Positions 9,829 through 41,890 of a stretch of 41,890 nt of DNA are shown one piece after another. Each line of letters begins with the position of its first letter. The stretch's first letter is position 1. The position numbers were made by a program, and so were the translations under genes. The notes below the pieces were generated by a model. The model made no database searches, was not told where the DNA came from, and saw only the letters and a list, made by a program, of their open reading frames with translations. This DNA is from Sedimentisphaerales bacterium. Lineage in GTDB: Bacteria; Planctomycetota; Phycisphaerae; Sedimentisphaerales; Anaerobacaceae. The DNA is taken from assembly GCA_016934255.1 (NCBI GenBank), contig JAFGTG010000478.1, forward strand, positions 1 through 41,890, in the 5' to 3' direction.

Positions 9829-10551
9829 CTATACAGAATTAAGGTTGACTACGGTTGCTGATGGAAGTTTCAGAGTAATGATTTCGACGGCCAGATTCGT
9901 CCATTTCTTACACTGATCGAGTACGACACTGTCGCTACTGGCTACGATGCCTTCCGTTTTTTTCAGTTCGGCGTCGGGGCTTAGGCAAAGCTCGATGCCC
10001 CAGTTCCAATTATTCTCCTGAGCTATTTCACCCATAAGTGTTTTCAACCGGCCGCTGTTGGAAACAGGGCTGTCCAATAACCAAATAGCTTTGCTCACAT
10101 CGGTCTCTTGCAGAAACTCACCGATAAGCTGTAACGCCGGGATGGTTTCGGTTACTTTACGATAGGTGCCGTGAATGCTGGCGAGGTCCCGGAAGCAACC
10201 GTCGCGTCCTTTGAAGATTACCCCCCCGCTCATCGCGGCTTCAACGGTGATTAACACATTATAACCATCAATAGCAATCGGTTGACCTGCAAGGTCCTTC
10301 AAATCAACGCGACGCTTATTACGGGAAGCAAGTTGCTGGTCGGAGCAGGCGCTGCGCATCACGGCCAGTCGCTGTCGTTCCGTCAGTGAAAACCTGTCGC
10401 CGACCAGCTTCAAGGCACTTTTCTGTGCATAGCCTTTCGTCAACAATAGTGAGAAATCAGCAAGAGCCGACCGTAAAATAGGAACAGCGTCGGGAGCGAA
10501 TAACGTTGAGTCCGCCGGATGCGGTCCTCGATGTGTGCGCTTATCAGGCAT
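9829..10551 (-). CDS. DUF434 domain-containing protein (COG2454-like)
   Basis: A 240-aa protein matching the DUF434/COG2454 family: an N-terminal helical part (RGPHPADSTLF, then ALKLVGDRFSLTERQRLAVMR) and a C-terminal PIN-like half (IAIDGYNVLITVEAAMSGG, KAIWLLDSPVSNSGRL, GIVASSDSVVLDQ). The IDGYNVL strand and the later acidic residues (D in LLDSP, D in SSDSVVLD) resemble the metal pocket of PIN/NYN nucleases; function has not been established to my knowledge. It is divergent from the metallo-hydrolase gene across a 106-nt repeat array and has no recognisable ribosome site, since the array ends right at the start codon. Confidence 0.85.
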   Translation of the reverse strand: MPDKRTHRGPHPADSTLFAPDAVPILRSALADFSLLLTKGYAQKSALKLVGDRFSLTERQRLAVMRSACSDQQLASRNKRRVDLKDLAGQPIAIDGYNVLITVEAAMSGGVIFKGRDGCFRDLASIHGTYRKVTETIPALQLIGEFLQETDVSKAIWLLDSPVSNSGRLKTLMGEIAQENNWNWGIELCLSPDAELKKTEGIVASSDSVVLDQCKKWTNLAVEIITLKLPSATVVNLNSV

Positions 10552-10554
10552 ATT

Positions 10555-10657
10555 TCATTGACTATTGATGATTGACTATTTACTATTGCCCTTTCGAGTA
10601 GGACTAACAATGAATAGTAACAATAATAAATAGAAAATCGTAAATAGTAAATCCTAA
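10555..10657. repeat. Inverted degenerate word array A (AATAGTCA / TAAATAGTAAA words)
   Basis: The whole spacer between the divergent DUF434 and metallo-hydrolase genes is built of near-repeats. On the left (10555-10588) TTGACTATTGATGA and TTGACTATTTACTATTG follow each other. On the right (10608-10657) AATAGTAACAATAATAAATAG and GTAAATAGTAAATC follow. The right side is roughly the reverse complement of the left, so a long imperfect hairpin can form around a unique 19-nt centre. The array reaches both start codons. Confidence 0.8.
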
Positions 10658-11527
10658 ATGCCGAGCCACAACTTAGCCCAACTAACCATTGATGATCTGG
10701 ATATCATCGGCTATTCCGTCGCGGGTGAAGAGACCGTCGTCGCCGTGCCGCAACTGGATGTCTGCTTCGATATCGGCAAGGCGCCGGACCAGATCATTCC
10801 GATCAACCACGTCCTGCTCACGCATGGGCATATGGACCACGCCGCCGGGATCGCGTATTACCTTTCACAACGAAACTTCTGCGGGATGTCGGCCGGAACG
10901 ATCCTGGCCCCGGAAAACCTGCTGAAACCCATGAGGGACATTATTAACGCCTGGTCGAAGCTCGACGGCAATCGCATCCCGGCCAACCTCGTCGGCGTTA
11001 AGCCCGGCGACGAAGTCCGAATCAAGCCGAACCTGTTCGCCAAGGTTTTCCCGACCAAGCACAGTAGAGGCTCCGTCGGCTTCAGCGTTATCGAGAAGCG
11101 AAAAAAGCTCAAATCCGAATACCTCGGCCTGACGGGCCCGCAAATCGTCGAACTGAAAAAGAAAGGTATCGAAATCGACTATCCGCTGGAGCTGCCGATT
11201 GTCACCTACCTCGGTGACACGCAATACGTGGACTTCTCGCAATTAAACTATATCGCCGAGAGTAAAATCCTGATCGCCGAGTGCACCTTCTATGAAGGCG
11301 AGCATACGGACCGGGCGGAAGCCGGAAAACACATGCACATCGAGGAATTTGTCACCCTGCTGAAAAAGTTGAGAAACGAATACATTATCGTCACCCACAC
11401 GACGCAGCGCACCCCCATGCGGCAAATCCGAAAGATCCTCAGAGAAGCACTCCCCGCGGAAAAATACGACAAGGTCTTCCTCTTCATGGACAAACGCCCC
11501 CCTCATTCCTACCAGCAACCTCGATAA
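10658..11527 (+). CDS. Metallo-beta-lactamase fold hydrolase, RNase Z-like
   Basis: A 289-aa hydrolase. The main metal motif THGHMDH is at residues 55-61 (ligands His56, His58, Asp60, His61). Another histidine lies in FPTKHSRGS, an aspartate in TYLGDTQYVD, and the closing histidine in IVTHTTQR. The order and the IAECTFYEGEH block resemble RNase Z/ElaC-type or related beta-CASP-less phosphodiesterases, as in the small RNase Z-like proteins of Planctomycetes and plants. A tRNA 3'-processing role is possible but unproven. The ATG at 10658 has no Shine-Dalgarno sequence: the array runs into it. No other start fits, because the fold begins at about residue 10. Confidence 0.85.
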   Translation: MPSHNLAQLTIDDLDIIGYSVAGEETVVAVPQLDVCFDIGKAPDQIIPINHVLLTHGHMDHAAGIAYYLSQRNFCGMSAGTILAPENLLKPMRDIINAWSKLDGNRIPANLVGVKPGDEVRIKPNLFAKVFPTKHSRGSVGFSVIEKRKKLKSEYLGLTGPQIVELKKKGIEIDYPLELPIVTYLGDTQYVDFSQLNYIAESKILIAECTFYEGEHTDRAEAGKHMHIEEFVTLLKKLRNEYIIVTHTTQRTPMRQIRKILREALPAEKYDKVFLFMDKRPPHSYQQPR

Positions 11528-18736: not shown

Positions 18737-18842
18737 AGTGCCTAAAGTTAAAAGTGACTAAAGTGACTAAAGTTAAACGGAACGTCATCATACGGAATTC
18801 ACTTTAGTCACTTTAGCTCATTTTAGTCACTTTAGCTCACTT
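18737..18842. repeat. Inverted degenerate word array B (AGTGACTAA word)
   Basis: The left arm (18737-18777) carries AGTGCCTAA, AGTTAAA, AGTGACTAA, AGTGACTAA and AGTTAA head to tail. The right arm (18800-18842) carries the reverse complement (CACTTTAGTCACTTTAG, then TTTTAGTCACTTTAGCTCAC). The arms flank a unique 22-nt centre. The left arm begins 3 nt upstream of the GT4 start codon. The same word is used at array C (23761-24015). Confidence 0.85.
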
Positions 18843-23753: not shown

Positions 23754-23760
23754 CGGAAAA

Positions 23761-24015
23761 AAGTGACTAAAGTGACTAAAGTGACTAAAGTGAACTAAAG
23801 TGTCTAAAGTGAACGAAAGTGAACGACAGTAAAAACGAAGCTGTCATTCTGAGCGCAAAGAGCCTTTAGCCCTGAGCGAAGCCGAAGGGGAAGAATCTTG
23901 TTCGTAAGCCAGACCCCTCAGCGGAGTTTACCCTGAGCACAGCCGAACGGGTTCGGGATGACACTTACGTGTCATTTTTGGCACTTTAGGCACTCTCAAC
24001 TTTAGGCACTTTTAA
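23761..24015. repeat. Inverted degenerate word array C (AGTGACTAA word) around a palindromic insert
   Basis: The left arm (23761-23830) has seven head-to-tail copies of a 9-10 nt word: AGTGACTAA three times, then AGTGAACTAA, AGTGTCTAA, AGTGAACGAA and AGTGAACGAC. The right arm (23969-24015) has the inverse word as GGCACTTTAGGCACT and CTTTAGGCACTTTTA. The arms enclose a separate element at 23840-23964. The array starts 7 nt after the rny stop and ends about 10 nt before the next start codon. Confidence 0.87.
23840..23964. repeat. REP/MITE-like palindromic element inside array C
   Basis: The element begins CTGTCATTCTGAGC and ends CGGGATGACAC, so its ends pair (TGTCAT with ATGACA). Inside are two forms of the phrase CCTGAGC-(g)A(A)GCCGAA-(c)GGG, near 23871-23889 and 23931-23951. 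TCATTCTGAGCG...GAAGAATCT-type sequences recur as dispersed repeats in many bacterial phyla, so this is likely a member of a known style of non-coding repeat, without any coding capacity. Confidence 0.65.
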
Positions 24016-24024
24016 AATCTAATT

Positions 24025-24876
24025 ATGAAACTCAATATCCTATGCATAGGTGACATTGTCGGCCGGCCCGGCAGACGAATCATTGCCGACAAGCTTAAAG
24101 CCCTGGTCAAGGAGCGCAGCATTGATTGCGTGATCGCCAACGCCGAAAACGCCGCCGGCGGCTCCGGCCTGACGCCGCAAATCTACAACAAACTACTCCG
24201 CTACGGCGTCAACCTGATCACGTTAGGCGACCACACCTATCGCAAGCGGGAAATCATCCCGACGCTCGAAACCGCCGACAACATCGTCCGCCCGGCTAAT
24301 TTCCCTACCAGCGCCGCCGGCAAAGGCACCGCGATGTATAAGACCGGCAAAGGACCGACCGTGGCCGTCGTCGCCCTGATCGGCCGGCTTTTTATGAAGC
24401 CCGGCGACTGCCCGTACAACATGATCGATCGCATTCTACCTCGGCTCCAGCAGGAAGCGGATGTCATCGTCGTCGATATGCACGCCGAGGCCACCAGCGA
24501 AAAGATCGCGATGGGCTACCATCTGGACGGCCGGGTCAGCCTGTGCTTCGGCACGCACACTCACGTCGCGACCGCCGACGAGCGAATCATGCCCAAGGGC
24601 ACCGCCTACATCACCGATATCGGCATGACCGGCCCGCACGACTCCATCCTCGGCCGGGGCGTCGAGAGCGTCCTGAAGTCGTTCCGAACGCAGATGCCGT
24701 ACCCGTTCGAGATCGCCACCGACGACGTCAGAATGAACGGCGTCTTAGCCACCATCGACAGCCACACCAAGAAGGCTGAACGCATCGAGCGCATCCGCAT
24801 CGACGCCGAGACCTCCGACGCGACCAGTTACGACAGCGACGACGGCAAGCCCGAATATCTCAACAACCACTTTTAA
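24025..24876 (+). CDS. ymdB: YmdB-family metallophosphoesterase
   Basis: A 283-aa member of the TIGR00282/YmdB family, a di-metal phosphodiesterase shown in Bacillus to act on 2',3'-cyclic nucleotides and to affect biofilm gene expression. Motifs: CIGDIVGRPGRR (Asp10 metal ligand), ANAENAAGGSGLT (Glu41-Asn42), TLGDHTYRKREI (Asp69-His70), VVDMHAEATSEK and FGTHTHVATAD (His ligands). At residue 69 most relatives have Asn (GNH); here it is Asp. The C-terminus has about 20 extra polar residues. It pairs with rny as in Firmicutes. No Shine-Dalgarno precedes the ATG, as array C occupies the leader. Confidence 0.92.
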   Translation: MKLNILCIGDIVGRPGRRIIADKLKALVKERSIDCVIANAENAAGGSGLTPQIYNKLLRYGVNLITLGDHTYRKREIIPTLETADNIVRPANFPTSAAGKGTAMYKTGKGPTVAVVALIGRLFMKPGDCPYNMIDRILPRLQQEADVIVVDMHAEATSEKIAMGYHLDGRVSLCFGTHTHVATADERIMPKGTAYITDIGMTGPHDSILGRGVESVLKSFRTQMPYPFEIATDDVRMNGVLATIDSHTKKAERIERIRIDAETSDATSYDSDDGKPEYLNNHF

Positions 24877-25130
24877 ACTCGTCTTGCGTCTTTCGTCTTG
24901 CGTATCGCGTATTGCGAATCCAGCTCGACATATTGGCTTTGATTGGCTTTGTTTTTGGGTGGTTTACTCAATCAGTTCATCACGCAACTCCTTATAAACA
25001 AGATGATTAAGCCGCTTGCGGGCCTAAGCCAATTGGCTTTGTTTTGTAAATTCGTTCTCGCAACACACATCACGCAATCCTCAATACGAAGTCAATTGGC
25101 TTTGTTTTACACAATCACCCTCCTTTTTGT
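24877..25130. repeat. Repeat locus D (CGTCTTGCGT words and ATTGGCTTTG units)
   Basis: Directly after the ymdB stop, CGTCTTGCGTCTTTCGTCTT and TGCGTATCGCGTATTGCG form a word array. ATTGGCTTTG then occurs at 24932, 24942, 25032 and 25095; the last two copies continue as TTTT. ATCACGCAA plus a TCC-like tail follows the units at about 24979 and 25069, so a 60-90 nt composite unit is repeated. The later CGCAATCCTCAATACGAAG is roughly the inverse of the starting words. No gene. Confidence 0.75.
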
Positions 25131-25603
25131 TTAGGATTTAGAAATTAGAACTTCGGATTTTCGGCCGGAGGCCGGCATTGGGTTCGTTTTGTAAAAGGTA
25201 CCACGAATCCGCATGAAAAAACGCGATTTTTTGGCGTTTTTGAAACGGAAACCCAGGATAAATGACGGTTTTTGTGAAAAAATGTGAATTTTTGTGCATT
25301 TTTAGTGTTTTTCGACACGACTCAACACGGTTTAGGATTTGTTTTCATTAACCGCGGATTCCGCGGATGACGCGGATAAATTTACAATAGTCAATCGTCA
25401 ATAATCAATAATCACTGATCAATAGAGGAGGTCTTCTGATGGCCCGATTCCCTTTCTTTTTTATTTGGTCTGATGTCTAAGGTCTGAAGTCTTGAGTCTA
25501 TTGTCTGACTTCTGTCTCCTGTCTCCTGTATTCTGCTATTCTATCTATATATTAGATATGTATTATACAAACACATTCGCTTGATGTCAAATGAATTTTT
25601 CTA
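25131..25603. repeat. Gene-free mosaic of short word arrays
   Basis: No coding region. Pieces in order: TTTAGGATTTAGAAATTAGAACTTCGGATTT-type words (25130-25165), a GGCCGGAGGCCGGC palindrome (about 25168-25181), T-rich spacers, CCGCGGATTCCGCGGATGACGCGGAT (25353-25378), the AATAGTCAATCGTCAATAATCA words (25386-25425) that also make up array A, and GTCTGATGTCTAAGGTCTGAAGTC followed by CTTCTGTCTCCTGTCTCCTGT (25478-25540), whose word returns at the tolC-like gene. A sizeable part of this DNA therefore shares words with the other arrays in the window. Confidence 0.65.
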
Positions 25604-25941: not shown

Positions 25942-27717
25942 ATGTTTGGAATGGCGAACATTACGACATACGGGATGAGTTATACGAAATTAATCCTGGC
26001 AACGATCATTACTACCATGAGTCCCGTTTCTCAGGTTCATGGCGAAGAAACGACCGTTCTAAATACAGAGACATCCATTCAATCCAAAGAACAAACAAAG
26101 GTCTCCGATCCTGTTTCTACCGACGATGAACTTTCGAAACGGATTAAACAGTTAATCAAAAGCCTGGAATATCCTGATAAAATCGCCGAAGATTTCGATC
26201 GAATGGTCATGGACTGGAAGGATGAGTTCGGTCGCCCTGTTCTGATTATTTGGAAGGATAGACTTATCAACGCCTACCAGGATTATCAAGAAGGCAAAAT
26301 ATCCAGGATCCAGGTTGCGAACATTGAGGAAAATGTTTTAGAGGAACTTGGCAAGAAAATTAAAAAAGAGTTTAGTTCTAAAAGGGTTTTCGAGCTTGGT
26401 GATGTGATTGAAAATCGACAGGCGAATTGTCTGGGGTATTCGCAATTGGTGTATATAATCGGAAATGCGATTGGGCTTTCGGTTAGATCTATAGATGTGT
26501 TGGATCAAGTCGTGTTTGTGGAAGGGGGAAGGGACGCGAAGGGAGGTCATGTAGCTTGTATCGTGGATTTATTTGATGGCCAAGTAGTAATCGCGGACAT
26601 GACATGGTTCTACGAGATAAGCTTGTTTTTTAAACTTAAGGATCAGTTTGTAAAGGTAGGTAATTATTGGGAACTCAAGAACAAAGATAATCCATTGCTC
26701 GTTCATACAAGAATCCGGCTCTTGGATAAAAGAGGACTTCTTGCTGGGATACATAACAGTCGAGGAGTAGTCTATAAATCCAGAGGTGAATATGATAGAG
26801 CCATACTGGAGTATAACAAAGCCATTGAGATCGATCCTGGATCAACTAAGGCCTATCACAATCGGGGCAACGCCTATCAAGAAAAAAGCGAATATGACCG
26901 AGCCATCCGGGATTATACAATGGCCATTGAGATCGACCCCAATTACGCTATAGCCTATACGGGTCGCGGCAACGTTTTCAATGCCAAAGGGGAGTACGTT
27001 CGCGCCATTGAAGATTACACAAAGGCTATCCAATTCGATCCAAAATTTGTTGAAGCCTATAACAATCGGGGAATTACCTATGCATACAATGGTGAGTATG
27101 ACCGGGCCATTCTGGATTTCACCAAAGTAATCGAGATCGATCCCAAATATACTGATGCCTATATCAACAGGGGATGTGTCTATGAAAACAAAGGCAAATA
27201 TGATCGGGCCATTCAGGACTATATAAAGGTCATTGAGATCGATCCAGAAGATGCTAGTGCCTACAATAATCGGGGCAATATCTATACAAACAAAGGCGAA
27301 TATGACCGGGCCATTCTTGATTATGACAAGGCCATCGAGATCGATCCAAAGTATGCTGTGGCCCATTACAATCGGGGGAATACCTATTATAAAAAAGATG
27401 AGTATGATCGGGCCATTCTGGATTATGACAAGGCCATTGAGATCGATCCATACTATGCTGTGGCATATAATAATCGGGGCACTGCCTATTATGAAAAAGG
27501 TGAGTATGACCGGGCTATTTTAGATTATGACAAGGTGATTGAGATTAATCCAGGATGCGCCGTTGCATATTTGGATCGGGGAGAGTTTTATGCCGAGTTA
27601 GGAAAATCTGAAGAAGCTAAAAAAGATTTGCTGAAAGCTCTCGAATTAGATCCGGAACTCAGAGACTCTGTAAAAAAGATATCCGAACAGTATGAATTCA
27701 ATCTCAAGCTCGATTGA
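25942..27717 (+). CDS. Exported transglutaminase-like / TPR protein, paralog 2
   Basis: A 591-aa paralog of the 14073 gene. An N-terminal signal segment covers about 12-33 (SYTKLILATIITTMSPVSQV). The transglutaminase-like domain carries Cys163 (QANCLGYSQLV), His203 (KGGHVACIVDLF) and Asp219 (VVIADMTWF), the same triad as paralog 1, with a 13-residue insertion before the His. Nine TPR units of exactly 34 residues follow (about 250-560). Several are nearly identical at DNA level (GGGCCATTCTGGATTATGAC, AAGGCCATTGAGATCGATCC), which points to recent unit duplication. The tail ends EFNLKLD, matching paralog 1 (DLNLKLN). AGGA stands 8 nt before the ATG. Function unknown; a scaffold or envelope hydrolase is possible. 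Confidence 0.82.
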   Translation: MFGMANITTYGMSYTKLILATIITTMSPVSQVHGEETTVLNTETSIQSKEQTKVSDPVSTDDELSKRIKQLIKSLEYPDKIAEDFDRMVMDWKDEFGRPVLIIWKDRLINAYQDYQEGKISRIQVANIEENVLEELGKKIKKEFSSKRVFELGDVIENRQANCLGYSQLVYIIGNAIGLSVRSIDVLDQVVFVEGGRDAKGGHVACIVDLFDGQVVIADMTWFYEISLFFKLKDQFVKVGNYWELKNKDNPLLVHTRIRLLDKRGLLAGIHNSRGVVYKSRGEYDRAILEYNKAIEIDPGSTKAYHNRGNAYQEKSEYDRAIRDYTMAIEIDPNYAIAYTGRGNVFNAKGEYVRAIEDYTKAIQFDPKFVEAYNNRGITYAYNGEYDRAILDFTKVIEIDPKYTDAYINRGCVYENKGKYDRAIQDYIKVIEIDPEDASAYNNRGNIYTNKGEYDRAILDYDKAIEIDPKYAVAHYNRGNTYYKKDEYDRAILDYDKAIEIDPYYAVAYNNRGTAYYEKGEYDRAILDYDKVIEINPGCAVAYLDRGEFYAELGKSEEAKKDLLKALELDPELRDSVKKISEQYEFNLKLD

Positions 27718-38337: not shown

Positions 38338-40020
38338 CTAATCCGTCGTCGGCACAATCGGTTCCCATCCCACTTTCGCCGCACCGAGGAGGGTGCCGGT
38401 CGCATAGGCCAGATCGACGAGAGCAATCTGATATTCCGCAAGGGCCTGTATCTCGGCGCTTTGGGAATTGGCAAAATTCGCCTGGGTCTGGAGCACGTCG
38501 GTCGAGGTGTTCAGGCCAAGCTCGAACTGGCGTTTCTCCGCCTCGAACAACCGGCCATCCAGGATCGTGCTTTGCCGGCTGGCCAACACCCGCTGCCAGT
38601 TTGCCTCAAGCTGATCGACGGCGTTGAGCACCTCCAGCTCGATCATCGCCTGGCGATTTTCCCGGCTGGCCAATCGCTGTCGGCGCTGATAAAAGGCCTG
38701 CCGGAGCCGGCTCTTGGCCGCCCCATTACCCAGCGGCACCTCCAACTGCAATCCCACGCGATGATCCTCGAATCGTGTATCAAAAAGCAAATCAAACGAA
38801 TCGTCCCGGGTCGCCCCCAGACCGTTAATATTATACGTATAACCCAAGGTCACCAACGGAAGGGTTTGATTCTTCGCATATTCCACTCCGGCGACGTCTT
38901 CGGCGATTTGCAGTTCCAGTTCAAGCAGCTCCATCCGATGCTCCATCGCCGTCGTCACCAACCGCTTCCTCTCCAACTCATACCGCACGGGATCGGGCTC
39001 GGTCCCAGGGATCAGCACCGTCGGGGTCTGCATCCCCAGACCCACCTTATTAAGCGTCCGCTTGAGTTCACGCTCCCGATCGCGCACATTGTTCTCCGAA
39101 ATGATGATGGCCTCAAGCTGCTGGGCCACGCCGGCCTCGGTCCGGATCACCTCCACTTGGGGTTTGTCCCCGGCGTCCACAAAACGGAGCGCCTGTTGGT
39201 ATAGCGCCTCCGCCAGATCATATTGTTTCTTGCGAACCTCCAATTCCCGCCGGGCGGCATACAGTCGCCAGTACACGCGGTCCACCGCGGCTATCACGCT
39301 GATCACTTCAAGTTTGGTTCGGGCGTCGGTGATTTGTCGTTCGTATTCGGCGATGCGAATAGAATAGGTGTTGACACGTCTCCCGGCGTTACGAAGGAGA
39401 GGCTGACTGATCGACAGGGACATATCTGAACTATAAGAAGGATCGAAAATCGAGTAGGGCGATCCGGTCTTCAAGCGAGCATCCGCCATGTCAAAGTTAA
39501 TCGTCCCACCGGTTCGCAAAGGGACCTGCACACCGAGACCCGCCCCGAAATAGTCGGTTTGCGAGCCTGAAATTTCATCGAGAAATGAGGCGGTCGGCGT
39601 ATCCTGCTTGACATAATTCACATTCGAAGTAAATGCCGCCTCGAACCGGGCCTCTTCCTGGCTGACTCTCTCGGCGGCCATGGCCGGGCTGATAAGCTGC
39701 ACCTTCAGTTCGAGGTTATTCTCCAGCGTCATGGCCCGGCACTGCTCCAGACTCAGCTCAAGCTCTTTCGCCGGGGCTTCATTCACGTCGTTGATATCCC
39801 GAACCTGCTCTTCGGGCTTGGCCTCTTTCAATTCAAGCGTTTGAACTTTTCGAAACCTTTCAGGGGGAATTTGGAGGGCGTAGGGATCCTTCTTACTGAA
39901 AAGATCACACCCGCACATAAGACAGAGGACAGAGATCAGAAGACAGAAAACAGACGACCTGATAAACGACGGACGACGGACGAGGGACGAGAGACGCAAA
40001 GCAAGTAATACTTCGTCCAT
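38338..40020 (-). CDS. TolC-family outer-membrane efflux lipoprotein
   Basis: About 560 aa from the ATG at 40020. The frame stays open to 40206, but that part is repeat array and lacks protein-like sequence. The N-terminus is a lipoprotein signal with lipobox near LMCGC. After a linker comes the outer-membrane efflux protein fold with two repeats of long helices: LEQCRAMTLENNLELKVQL at the start, SISQPLLRNAGRRVNTYSIR strand, DRVYWRLYAARRELEVRKKQYDLAEALYQQA, and a second half with GVEYAKNQTLPLVTLGYTYN, VGLQLEVPLGNGAAKSRLRQA and FELGLNTSTDVLQTQANFANSQ. It would form the outer-membrane channel for the MacB-like pair encoded just upstream. TolC proteins with a lipid anchor belong to the OprM-like type. 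Confidence 0.88.
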   Translation of the reverse strand: MDEVLLALRLSSLVRRPSFIRSSVFCLLISVLCLMCGCDLFSKKDPYALQIPPERFRKVQTLELKEAKPEEQVRDINDVNEAPAKELELSLEQCRAMTLENNLELKVQLISPAMAAERVSQEEARFEAAFTSNVNYVKQDTPTASFLDEISGSQTDYFGAGLGVQVPLRTGGTINFDMADARLKTGSPYSIFDPSYSSDMSLSISQPLLRNAGRRVNTYSIRIAEYERQITDARTKLEVISVIAAVDRVYWRLYAARRELEVRKKQYDLAEALYQQALRFVDAGDKPQVEVIRTEAGVAQQLEAIIISENNVRDRERELKRTLNKVGLGMQTPTVLIPGTEPDPVRYELERKRLVTTAMEHRMELLELELQIAEDVAGVEYAKNQTLPLVTLGYTYNINGLGATRDDSFDLLFDTRFEDHRVGLQLEVPLGNGAAKSRLRQAFYQRRQRLASRENRQAMIELEVLNAVDQLEANWQRVLASRQSTILDGRLFEAEKRQFELGLNTSTDVLQTQANFANSQSAEIQALAEYQIALVDLAYATGTLLGAAKVGWEPIVPTTD

Positions 40021-40200
40021 CGTCCATCCGTGTCGCGGGCATCTTGCCCGCGATTCGAGGGCGGGACGCCCTCGGCACGAGGAACGAATGACGCAAGATG
40101 AATCGTCCTTCGTCCCTCGTCCTCCGCAAGGAGTCCCGAGGACTTTCGTCCATCGTCGTTTTTTGTCTGTCATCTGTCGGCTGCCTTCTGTCATCTGTTT
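39921..40200. repeat. Nested word array J (TCTGTC and CGTCCGT words) with a double hairpin core
   Basis: Two words are nested. Outer: GACAGAGGACAGAGATCAGA at 39921 and its inverse TCTGTCATCTGTCGG at about 40166-40200. Inner: GACGGACGACGGACGAGGGA at about 39968 and its inverse CTTCGTCCATCGTCCATCC at 40011 and TCGTCCTTCGTCCCTCGTCC at 40104. The core has two perfect 7-bp hairpins, CGCGGGC-ATCTT-GCCCGCG (40034-40052) and GAGGGCG-GGA-CGCCCTC (40057-40073). The left half lies inside the tolC-like reading frame; the right half fills the gap to the permease stop. Confidence 0.87.
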
Positions 40201-41464
40201 ACTCATGTCTCAGAGCCTCAATAGGATCGAGTCGGGCGGCTTTGATCGCCGGGAACATACCAAAGAAAACCCCCACCGTGGCCGCAAAGCCGAACGACAG
40301 CGCGATGGCCCACAGGGGAATATACGCCATATCCAGAAGGTCCGCTCCCGGGATATTGGCGATGAATATCGTCAACAACTGGCCGAGTCCGACCCCGATC
40401 AGCCCGCCAAACAAACACAGCACGACCGACTCAACGAGAAATTGCAGCAGGATCGCCGAGGGTTTAGCGCCCACCGCTTTGCGCAAACCGATTTCGCGCG
40501 TGCGTTCGGAGACCGAGACAAGCATGATGTTCATAATACCGACGCCGCCCACGAGCAGAGAGATGCCAACGATCCCGCCCGCCACGGCGGTGACGGTCAT
40601 GGCAAAACTGGTGAACATCTTCTGATACTCCTCAATCACCTCCAGGCGGAAGGTATCCGGATCGCCCGGTTCGAGACGACGGGCCTGCCGGAGAAAGAAA
40701 CGCAGCTCCGCCTGGGCCTCCTTGGACAACTCCGGCGCTCGGCAACTGGCCATGGCATAGATCCAGGGATCCCAGAGCCGATACGCGGTCTCGAAGGGAA
40801 TAAAGACCTCCTTCGACGATCCCATGTCGCTGAACATACCGCCTTTGACGCGCCCCTCGACCACCCCGACAATCTCATAGCTTCGCCGGTCGATGACGAT
40901 CCGTTTGCCGATACAGTCGCGCTCGAGGCGCAGGTCATCCCTCACTTCCGGCGTGATTAAACAGACCTGCCACCCATTCTCCTCATCCATTAGTGTAAAG
41001 GGCCGTCCGTCAATGACGGACCGGTTTTCGATCCGGTGCCAGGAAGGATTGATGCCGTTGATGCGAGCCCCGTCGATACTTTCAACGCCATAATAGACGG
41101 TTTGGCCGCGGTCGGTCATCAACGTGTAGTCTTCGAGGGACGGGCAACGCTCCAACAGGCCCTCGAATTGTTTCGGCGTGAAACGGATTTGCCGCCAATT
41201 GAAATGCCTGAATTTCCCTTCCCGGGGCCAATGCGGAACGATGAAGATTTTATTGGTTCCGAGCGCCTCAAAGTCCTTGAGCACTTTGGCCTTCAGGCCG
41301 GTCAGGGCGGCGATGACCGCGGTCACCGACGCCACGCCGATCACAATGCCGACCGTCGTCAACGTGGAGCGCATTTTATTCGCCCAAATCTGGCCCATGG
41401 CCAGGCGAATGCTTTGCAGGACCAGAGCGACAAACAATAACGGAGCCGCGAGCAGTTGTTTCAT
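40199..41464 (-). CDS. MacB-like ABC transporter permease
   Basis: About 421 aa from the ATG at 41464; a start at 41497 would add MGDDRRCTEAL. The topology is of MacB/FtsX type: TM1 in AMGQIWANKMRSTLTTVGIVIGVASVTAV with the usual amphipathic helix, then a large periplasmic MacB_PCD domain (about 60-280) with VYYGVESIDGARINGINPSW and VIDGRPFTLMDEENGW, and three C-terminal TMs (about 285-310, 335-360, 375-400). It has the hallmark SVSERTREIGLRKAVGAK coupling motif between TM2 and TM3 and ends in FPAIKAARLDPIEALRHE. With the ATPase upstream and the TolC-like gene downstream it forms a tripartite exporter; the periplasmic adaptor is not in view and probably lies beyond the right edge. Substrates could be peptides, lipoproteins or macrolides. 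Confidence 0.92.
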   Translation of the reverse strand: MKQLLAAPLLFVALVLQSIRLAMGQIWANKMRSTLTTVGIVIGVASVTAVIAALTGLKAKVLKDFEALGTNKIFIVPHWPREGKFRHFNWRQIRFTPKQFEGLLERCPSLEDYTLMTDRGQTVYYGVESIDGARINGINPSWHRIENRSVIDGRPFTLMDEENGWQVCLITPEVRDDLRLERDCIGKRIVIDRRSYEIVGVVEGRVKGGMFSDMGSSKEVFIPFETAYRLWDPWIYAMASCRAPELSKEAQAELRFFLRQARRLEPGDPDTFRLEVIEEYQKMFTSFAMTVTAVAGGIVGISLLVGGVGIMNIMLVSVSERTREIGLRKAVGAKPSAILLQFLVESVVLCLFGGLIGVGLGQLLTIFIANIPGADLLDMAYIPLWAIALSFGFAATVGVFFGMFPAIKAARLDPIEALRHE

Positions 41465-41527
41465 GAGCGCCTCCGTGCAACGTCGATCGTCACCCACTCA
41501 CCCGTCCTATCATATATGAACGTGCGT

Positions 41528-41890
41528 CTATTCATCGTCGGACTCCTGACTTGCGGGCACGATGCGATTTGATCCGGTCTTCTCATCGAAGATAATCTGT
41601 CCATCCCGCATTTGCAAAATGCGTTCGGCATGGCGACCCACGAGATCCTCGTGTGTCACTAAAATGATCGTCTGACCCTCACGATGAAGCTGATCGAACA
41701 ATTTAAGGACGTCCTCGCTTGTTTTGCTGTCGAGGTTGCCCGTGGGTTCGTCAGCCAGGAGGATGCTGGGATGGTTGCTCAGGGCCCGGGCAATGGCGAC
41801 GCGCTGTCTCTCTCCGCCGGACAACTGGTTCGGCCGATGTTTGATCCGCCCGGATAACCCGACGCGCACCAACTGTTCCCTGGCCCGCGC
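41528..41890 (-). CDS. MacB/LolD-type ABC ATPase (5' part cut by window edge)
   Basis: The C-terminal 120 residues of an ABC ATPase. Visible: signature motif [15 protein letters not shown], Walker [21 protein letters not shown] with the catalytic Glu, and switch His in [10 protein letters not shown], then [23 protein letters not shown] is typical of the MacB/LolD/FtsE group. The Walker A part lies outside the window. The stop is 63 nt upstream of the permease start, in the same operon. Codons run unbroken to the last base, so the gene is intact as far as seen. Confidence 0.93.

Follow-up and report, generated by a model that had tools for sequence, protein, structure and literature searches.

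Palindromic DNA that lies in frame within protein-coding genes has been described as the Rickettsia palindromic elements (RPE), with comparable elements in the genes of Wolbachia and Methanocaldococcus (PMC10969869, PMC3733652, PMC2996958). The repeat element described here, at the 5' end of a tolC-like gene of a planctomycete, resembles RPE in that palindromic DNA stands in frame in unrelated essential genes, where it is apparently translated and is tolerated at unstructured sites. RPE, however, form families with a fixed consensus of ~150 bp, whereas the present element has arms of degenerate heptamers whose words differ between genomes; since no single consensus is shared, it falls outside the RPE families. 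Moreover, the product of an RPE is a loop, while that of the planctomycete element (from a family known from metagenomes) can be a predicted signal peptide. The palindromic amphipathic repeats termed PARCEL (PMC2996958) are likewise palindromic coding repeats and are found in surface lipoproteins, but they constitute a 25-residue protein domain family with a different unit length and do not form a signal peptide.

A second group of related sequences comprises dispersed heptanucleotide repeats, including the STRR of cyanobacteria, GGGAATC of Xanthomonas (PMC4692102), and TAACTGA of Beggiatoaceae (PMC4679880). These share with the planctomycete arrays degenerate 7-bp tandem units that are dispersed and often located at gene junctions. 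In Beggiatoaceae, the heptamer yields one repeating peptide and the stop-bearing orientation is excluded from genes (PMC4679880). The STRR, GGGAATC, and TAACTGA repeats lie mostly between genes and use a single vocabulary in each lineage, whereas the planctomycete arrays use several vocabularies and include many in-frame intragenic copies, some of which replace a predicted targeting signal. That random sequences can act as signal peptides is known from Kaiser et al. (1987), as cited in PMC4585086, and such a library accounts for many arbitrary hydrophobic N-termini serving as signals. It was, however, a laboratory library in yeast, while the case examined here concerns natural repeat DNA, repeatedly, at one bacterial locus. 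Thus, although coding palindromes and coding heptamers were already known, the open literature searched yielded no previous account of a bacterial signal peptide rebuilt again and again from natural repeat DNA, an absence that is weak evidence in itself.

The TolC-like gene and the element at its 5' end

The window, meaning the whole stretch of 41,890 nucleotides that was analysed, derives from a draft MAG (86% complete, 5% contaminated) and carries on its minus strand an efflux operon encoding an ABC ATPase, a MacB/FtsX permease, and a TolC-like outer-membrane efflux protein (Table 1). The last of these matches Pfam OEP PF02321 at 155.9 bits (curated cut-off 22), and its mature ORF is intact, with up to 78% identity to its orthologues (71-78% for the closest). 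By sequence, the gene is a real lipoprotein TolC gene of a MacB-type efflux operon, with export predicted.

Table 1. Features of the efflux operon and of the repeat element at the start of tolC (window coordinates).
Feature	Position	Strand	Basis or remark
ABC ATPase, same efflux operon, runs off the window	41528-41890	-	Pfam ABC_tran
MacB/FtsX-type ABC permease, directly upstream of tolC	40199-41497	-	Pfam MacB_PCD and FtsX
TolC-like outer-membrane efflux lipoprotein ORF, 622 aa	38338-40206	-	Pfam OEP PF02321; mature part 38338-39906
Overlapping start/stop ATGAGTAA, tolC ATG on permease stop	40199-40206	-	Most orthologues retain this ancestral, coupled start
Outer 5' arm, ACAGATG/GACAGA words, purine-rich, hydrophilic MTEGSRQMTDKK	40165-40198	-	Fold pairs with 39921-39957
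Inner 5' arms, GGACGAN words at 40146-40159 and 40103-40123	40103-40159	-	Word search, fold pairing
Two short dispersed palindromes nested in the element, CGCGGGCA-TCT-TGCCCGCG and CGAGGGCG-GGA-CGCCCTCG	40034-40074	.	Sequence
GGACGATGGACGA pair, hairpin partner of 39971-39990	40013-40026	-	Strict hairpin match 39971-40025
Possible internal ATG start, named in the earlier note	40018-40020	-	Cysteine at 38, no K/R in first seven residues
Possible internal TTG start	39997-39999	-	Alone among the candidates, fits PS51257 in full (cysteine at 31, Arg at 2)
Inner 3' arm, TCGTCCN words, coding for SSLVRRPS, the predicted n-region positive charges	39968-39994	-	Word search, translation
Outer 3' arm, TCTGTCN words, coding for SSVFCLLISVLC, the predicted hydrophobic h-region	39921-39957	-	Word search, translation, hydropathy
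Lipobox LMCGC, predicted lipidated cysteine C100 (codon 39909-39907)	39907-39921	-	PROSITE PS51257; aligns with orthologue LTGC/LAGC

At the 5' end of tolC, degenerate 7-bp words on the minus strand at 39921-39994 code for RRPSFIRSSVFCLLISVLC; they comprise TCTCTCGTCCCTCGTCCGTCGTCCGTCG at 39968-39994 and TCGTCTGTTTTCTGTCTTCTGATCTCTGTCCTCTGTCT at 39921-39957. An earlier note on this DNA had described a word array from about 40020 down to 39921 with this translation, and had traced the positive charges to CGTCCGTCG words and the hydrophobic part to TCTGTC words. The words, the translation, and the source of both peptide regions (the charges being the RRP arginines) were borne out, but the extent was not, as word DNA and palindromes continue to 40198. 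The array is only the 3' arm of a nested palindrome of ~285 bp (39921-40198) that lies between the junction start codon, ATGAGTAA, and the lipobox, and in which complementary arms follow one another in the order A, B, two small palindromes, B', A'. As DNA, positions 39915-40206 fold into a single nested hairpin with a minimum free energy of -80 kcal/mol against -45.6 in shuffled sequences, so that the element is palindromic in the manner of RPE (z = -8.6). The small inner-palindrome module has 43 matches in the same genome, many of them 90-98% identical.

Periodicity of the words was evident as lag-7 self-identity, which reached 27/40 at 39908-40014, whereas 60 dinucleotide shuffles of the entire window never gave more than 24; identities at 40074-40123 and 40146-40213 also exceeded anything in these shuffles. 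The leader segment scored 29 (p = 0.003, the floor with 300 shuffles). Tandem Repeats Finder did not report the tolC leader array, its units being too degenerate, and an Rfam scan of the window returned no family. Further lag-7 word arrays occur in the window at 10548-10671, 24868-24929, 25129-25176, 25372-25433, and 25451-25544, with differing vocabularies (TATTGAC, GCGTATT, TCAATAA, TCTGAAG, and others). Elsewhere in the window, TCACTTTAG tandem repeats (18799-18842) and inverted AAAGTGACT repeats (23760-23822) flank a block with ORFs of 753 and 525 aa that looks like a mobile element with repeated ends, and 102-bp tandem repeats of TPR-like appearance lie within a 591-aa ORF (26784-27552).

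The cysteine that closes the peptide quoted in the earlier note, taken there as the lipobox residue, is C95; it is ruled out by the leucine at position -1. The match to PROSITE PS51257 instead lies outside the interval given there, in LISVLCLMCGC, ending at C100. Residue -3 of this lipobox is methionine, which is allowed though leucine is usual, and the most hydrophobic 12-mer of the leader and of the precursor is VFCLLISVLCLM (KD 3.08). The full PS51257 rule calls for a cysteine at 15-35 and K/R within the first seven residues. Because translation from the ATG at 40206 places the lipobox cysteine at residue 100, a signal of normal length would need an internal start, for which the TTG at 39999 fits best; the ATG at 40020 is not favoured, given its late cysteine and lack of an early K/R.

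Coding properties of heptamer words and their other hosts

Since 7 is not a multiple of 3, a tandem heptamer codes for one cyclic heptapeptide in every frame, as was noted earlier for TAACTGA (PMC4679880); a tandem 8-base unit likewise passes through all codon phases and yields one cyclic peptide. Of the 16384 heptamers, 11260 have no stop in any of the three forward frames. Among open heptamers, TCTGTCT (SVFCLLS, KD 2.21) lies at the 96.6th percentile of hydropathy, CTTGTGC (LVPCALC) at the 97.9th, and TTTTGCA (FCILHFA) at the 96.1st, whereas the complement of TCTGTCT codes for RQKTEDR (KD -3.44). Because complementary strands are read with opposite hydropathy, a palindromic array has one charged and one hydrophobic arm. 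The order of the arms is also biased: complementary words (at least 2 within 250 bp) were present on the 5' side of 13 of 83 TCTGTC arrays and on the 3' side of none, and strict hairpins in 89 genomes were purine-first at eight sites, one of them the window itself, and reversed at one. The two samples overlap in part, and the word list used for these orientation tests covers one vocabulary. Given that a palindrome is identical on both strands and that the purine arm comes first, the reading from either side is charged and then hydrophobic, an order that resembles the n-region and h-region of a signal peptide.

Triplets of TCGTCCN words matched nine places in the same genome and none in the reversed control, indicating that the heptamers are dispersed. 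Eight of the nine lie inside a long ORF (the exception being L005), with Pfam families assigned for three hosts, so that they are not mainly intergenic as STRR-like heptanucleotide repeats are. In-frame words were present inside an Mfd-like protein, an M56 peptidase, and an MtaB-like radical-SAM protein of the same genome and, in relatives, inside DnaG, MurD (twice), AlaRS, LysRS, other tRNA synthetases, QueG, TilS, and others. As with RPE, therefore, insertion in frame affects unrelated conserved genes. In the same genome, five loci (L004, L006, L003, L007, and L008) hold in-frame GGACGAN/TCGTCCN elements, mostly hairpins with the purine arm first, in genes for Mfd-like, radical-SAM methylthiotransferase, M56 peptidase, PQQ-like, and MTAP-like proteins. 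MurD of two related genomes (L062 and L068) carries an in-frame insert of the RQKTEDR type in the same region, with lengths that differ.

The sense in which the words are read depends on their position in the host. Within long ORFs, 18 internal TCTGTC arrays were in the hydrophilic and 2 in the hydrophobic sense (p = 4e-4), and one of the latter two encodes part of a membrane permease; N-terminal arrays were hydrophobic in 6 cases and hydrophilic in 5 (Fisher p = 0.012), with some contexts uncertain because ORFs were chosen by length. Four of the hydrophobic N-terminal arrays start proteins of exported type, namely a trypsin/PDZ protein (L072), a PQQ propeller (L084), a cytochrome c554 (L159), and a DUF3352 protein (L149), and array signals are thus not confined to tolC. 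The trypsin/PDZ protein, from the same genome as the window, has VVFLLSSVFCLLSSATQGA in this region. At its locus (L072, 1268-2956, in C340; the same place as L011), TCTGTCT repeats code for the hydrophobic core of a second predicted signal peptide built from an array. TCTGTC arrays are not a feature of the phylum as a whole, with matches in 8 of 199 phylum genomes versus 38 of 89 family genomes. The genome of Planctomycetota bacterium B3T3L8 (G034; loci L016 and L045) has 272 triple-TCTGTC matches, far above other family genomes.

Signal peptides of TolC orthologues

TolC orthologues were collected from the same family and order together with three named MAG records (Phycisphaerae, Planctomycetia, and Phycisphaerales), and the segment between the junction ATG and the lipobox codon was compared. 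Arrays were called at a lag-7 or lag-8 periodicity score of at least 10 with p at its floor (0.003, 300 shuffles each); six orthologues whose junction could not be extracted by script were classed by eye, G097 as an array and the others as plain. An ordinary signal peptide of ~26 residues (72-81 nt) occupies the slot in 46 of the 64 orthologues, as exemplified by MSKKFSLECCWFVIFVGLGLIVLTGC in G026. In the remaining 18, which include two marginal calls of ordinary length (G071 and G092), the slot is partly or wholly a heptamer or octamer array in one of several vocabularies: TCTGTC in the window, G083, and G082; AAATTTC and CTTGTGC in G034, G097, G098, and G099; GAGCACA/TGTGCTC in G005; ACAGA/TCTGT in G076; TTTTGCA in G015; CTTCGTGC and ATTCTGC in GL140; CGCAAGAA in G109; and TCAATTT in G072. 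In G072 and G107, an array n-region is followed by an ordinary h-region, intermediate between the two forms. In the window's tolC gene, no host-coded hydrophobic segment remains apart from the array.

In a tree built from the mature proteins, the array and plain labels need 13 changes, 12 of which are forced by branches with SH-aLRT of at least 95; as the tree was a quick one (LG+G4), the count is approximate. In genus g6 alone, G075 and G077 have the plain MSRRVIVVKSLILMLLLGMSIALAGC, G076 an ACAGA/TCTGT hairpin, and G005 a GAGCACA/TGTGCTC hairpin. Because similar plain signals are found in more than one genus (WFVVFVGLGLFLLAGC in G011, WFVIFVGLGLIVLTGC in G026), the arrays are most likely gains rather than ancestral. 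A common ancestry of all array signals is ruled out by the differing words, by the at least 12 forced changes, and by the plain signal of the close relative G026. Array-built signals thus appear to have arisen repeatedly, the tree requiring no fewer than 12-13 state changes. The earlier proposal that a real gene had its export signal replaced or built by the array, here with secretion predicted, is strongly supported by these changes and by the plain orthologue signals; an orthologue with the same N-terminus encoded by non-repetitive DNA, which would speak against it, was not found among the TolC orthologues compared.

Arrays could also form without insertion, if the DNA of the ancestral signal had itself been expanded by slippage. 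The TCAATTT words of G011, G071, and G072 show such stepwise growth in place, G072 being longer than G071 by exactly 21 nt, or three heptamers, in frame, and the AAATTTC and CTTGTGC arrays of the clade of G034, G097, G098, and G099 could have the same source. Slippage alone, however, does not make inverted arms, and both the window and G083 have complementary arrays widely separated by loops, that of the window containing the dispersed module; expansion in place is therefore an unlikely origin for the tolC element. Still less likely is that the element acts as DNA or RNA, as a terminator-like hairpin or one that controls coupling between permease and tolC, with the peptide merely tolerated. 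A strong hairpin does sit at the gene junction, and heptamer repeats near starts were proposed as translational regulators in Beggiatoaceae (PMC4679880). Nevertheless, only 4 of the 17 array segments scored are strongly palindromic, so the palindrome is dispensable for an array signal; the words vary among relatives, and therefore no RNA sequence is conserved; and in other genes orientation tracks the hydropathy of the peptide.

Although leaders range from 75 to 300 nt, 15 of 17 array orthologues have the lipobox in the reading frame of the junction ATG, where one third would be expected (p = 4.5e-6, an optimistic value because related genomes are not fully independent). Stop codons in frames 0, 1, and 2 of the insert number 0, 4, and 1 in the window and 0, 3, and 2 in both G083 and G082, so the insert is open in frame 0 only. 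Array and plain signals did not differ in peak hydropathy of the h-region (2.77 and 2.60) or in n-region charge (+2.8 and +2.6). Frame retention and matching hydropathy and charge support translation of the arrays as predicted export signals. That the element instead destroyed the export signal, leaving a decaying gene or a mislocalised protein, is improbable: a 99-residue leader is extreme and the strong hairpin could block ribosomes, but the mature ORF is intact, the lipobox and hydropathy in the window are like those of plain signals, and relatives with array signals keep intact genes. Finally, the array is very improbably intergenic DNA that seems coding for want of stops in its words, with translation starting elsewhere, since, despite the many heptamers open by composition and the possibility of internal starts, the only start 3' of the array (39918) leaves MCGC without a signal, nearly all orthologues inspected have a signal in the slot, and both the single open frame and the frame held with the junction ATG argue for coding.

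Probable origin of the array-built signal and its meaning

The explanation that best fits these comparisons, and a probable one, is that a heptamer element of ~285 bp replaced the ancestral signal of tolC, and that its 3' arm is translated and works as a signal. The ancestral peptide of ~26 codons is gone and the element stands in its place, with no stop in frame between the junction start codon and the lipobox. The 3' arm, presumably translated, would then provide both the n-region and the h-region for Sec/SPase II export. What fits it for this role is that the heptamer is frame-independent, that its pyrimidine-rich word is hydrophobic and the complement charged, and that the arms are purine-first. 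In orthologues, other word arrays have many times replaced or lengthened this signal, and one relative shows growth in place by whole heptamers. Selection would keep those insertions whose peptide suits the site, hydrophilic inside soluble proteins and hydrophobic at exported N-termini.

More tentatively, purine-first palindromic heptamer elements of this planctomycete family may be ready-made signal-peptide cassettes that, near a start codon, could encode a charged n-region and then a hydrophobic h-region in any frame and orientation, so that lineages might swap or create export signals repeatedly and genome-wide; indifference to frame and orientation would follow from 7 not being a multiple of 3 and from arms that run purine-then-pyrimidine on both strands.

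Signal peptides evolve fast, and the origin of new ones is seldom seen. At the tolC locus, plain, half-replaced, and fully array-built signals occur side by side in one family, with a simple physical reason at hand in frame-independent heptapeptides and the opposite hydropathy of complementary strands, and the emergence of a targeting signal out of repeats becomes directly testable. Intragenic repeats appear to be sorted by the peptide that they encode, and in genomes of this kind gene callers may place N-termini wrongly. For the biology of this family, these observations suggest that junk-like repeats can supply working gene parts, the same signal having apparently been replaced by other repeats many times in relatives.
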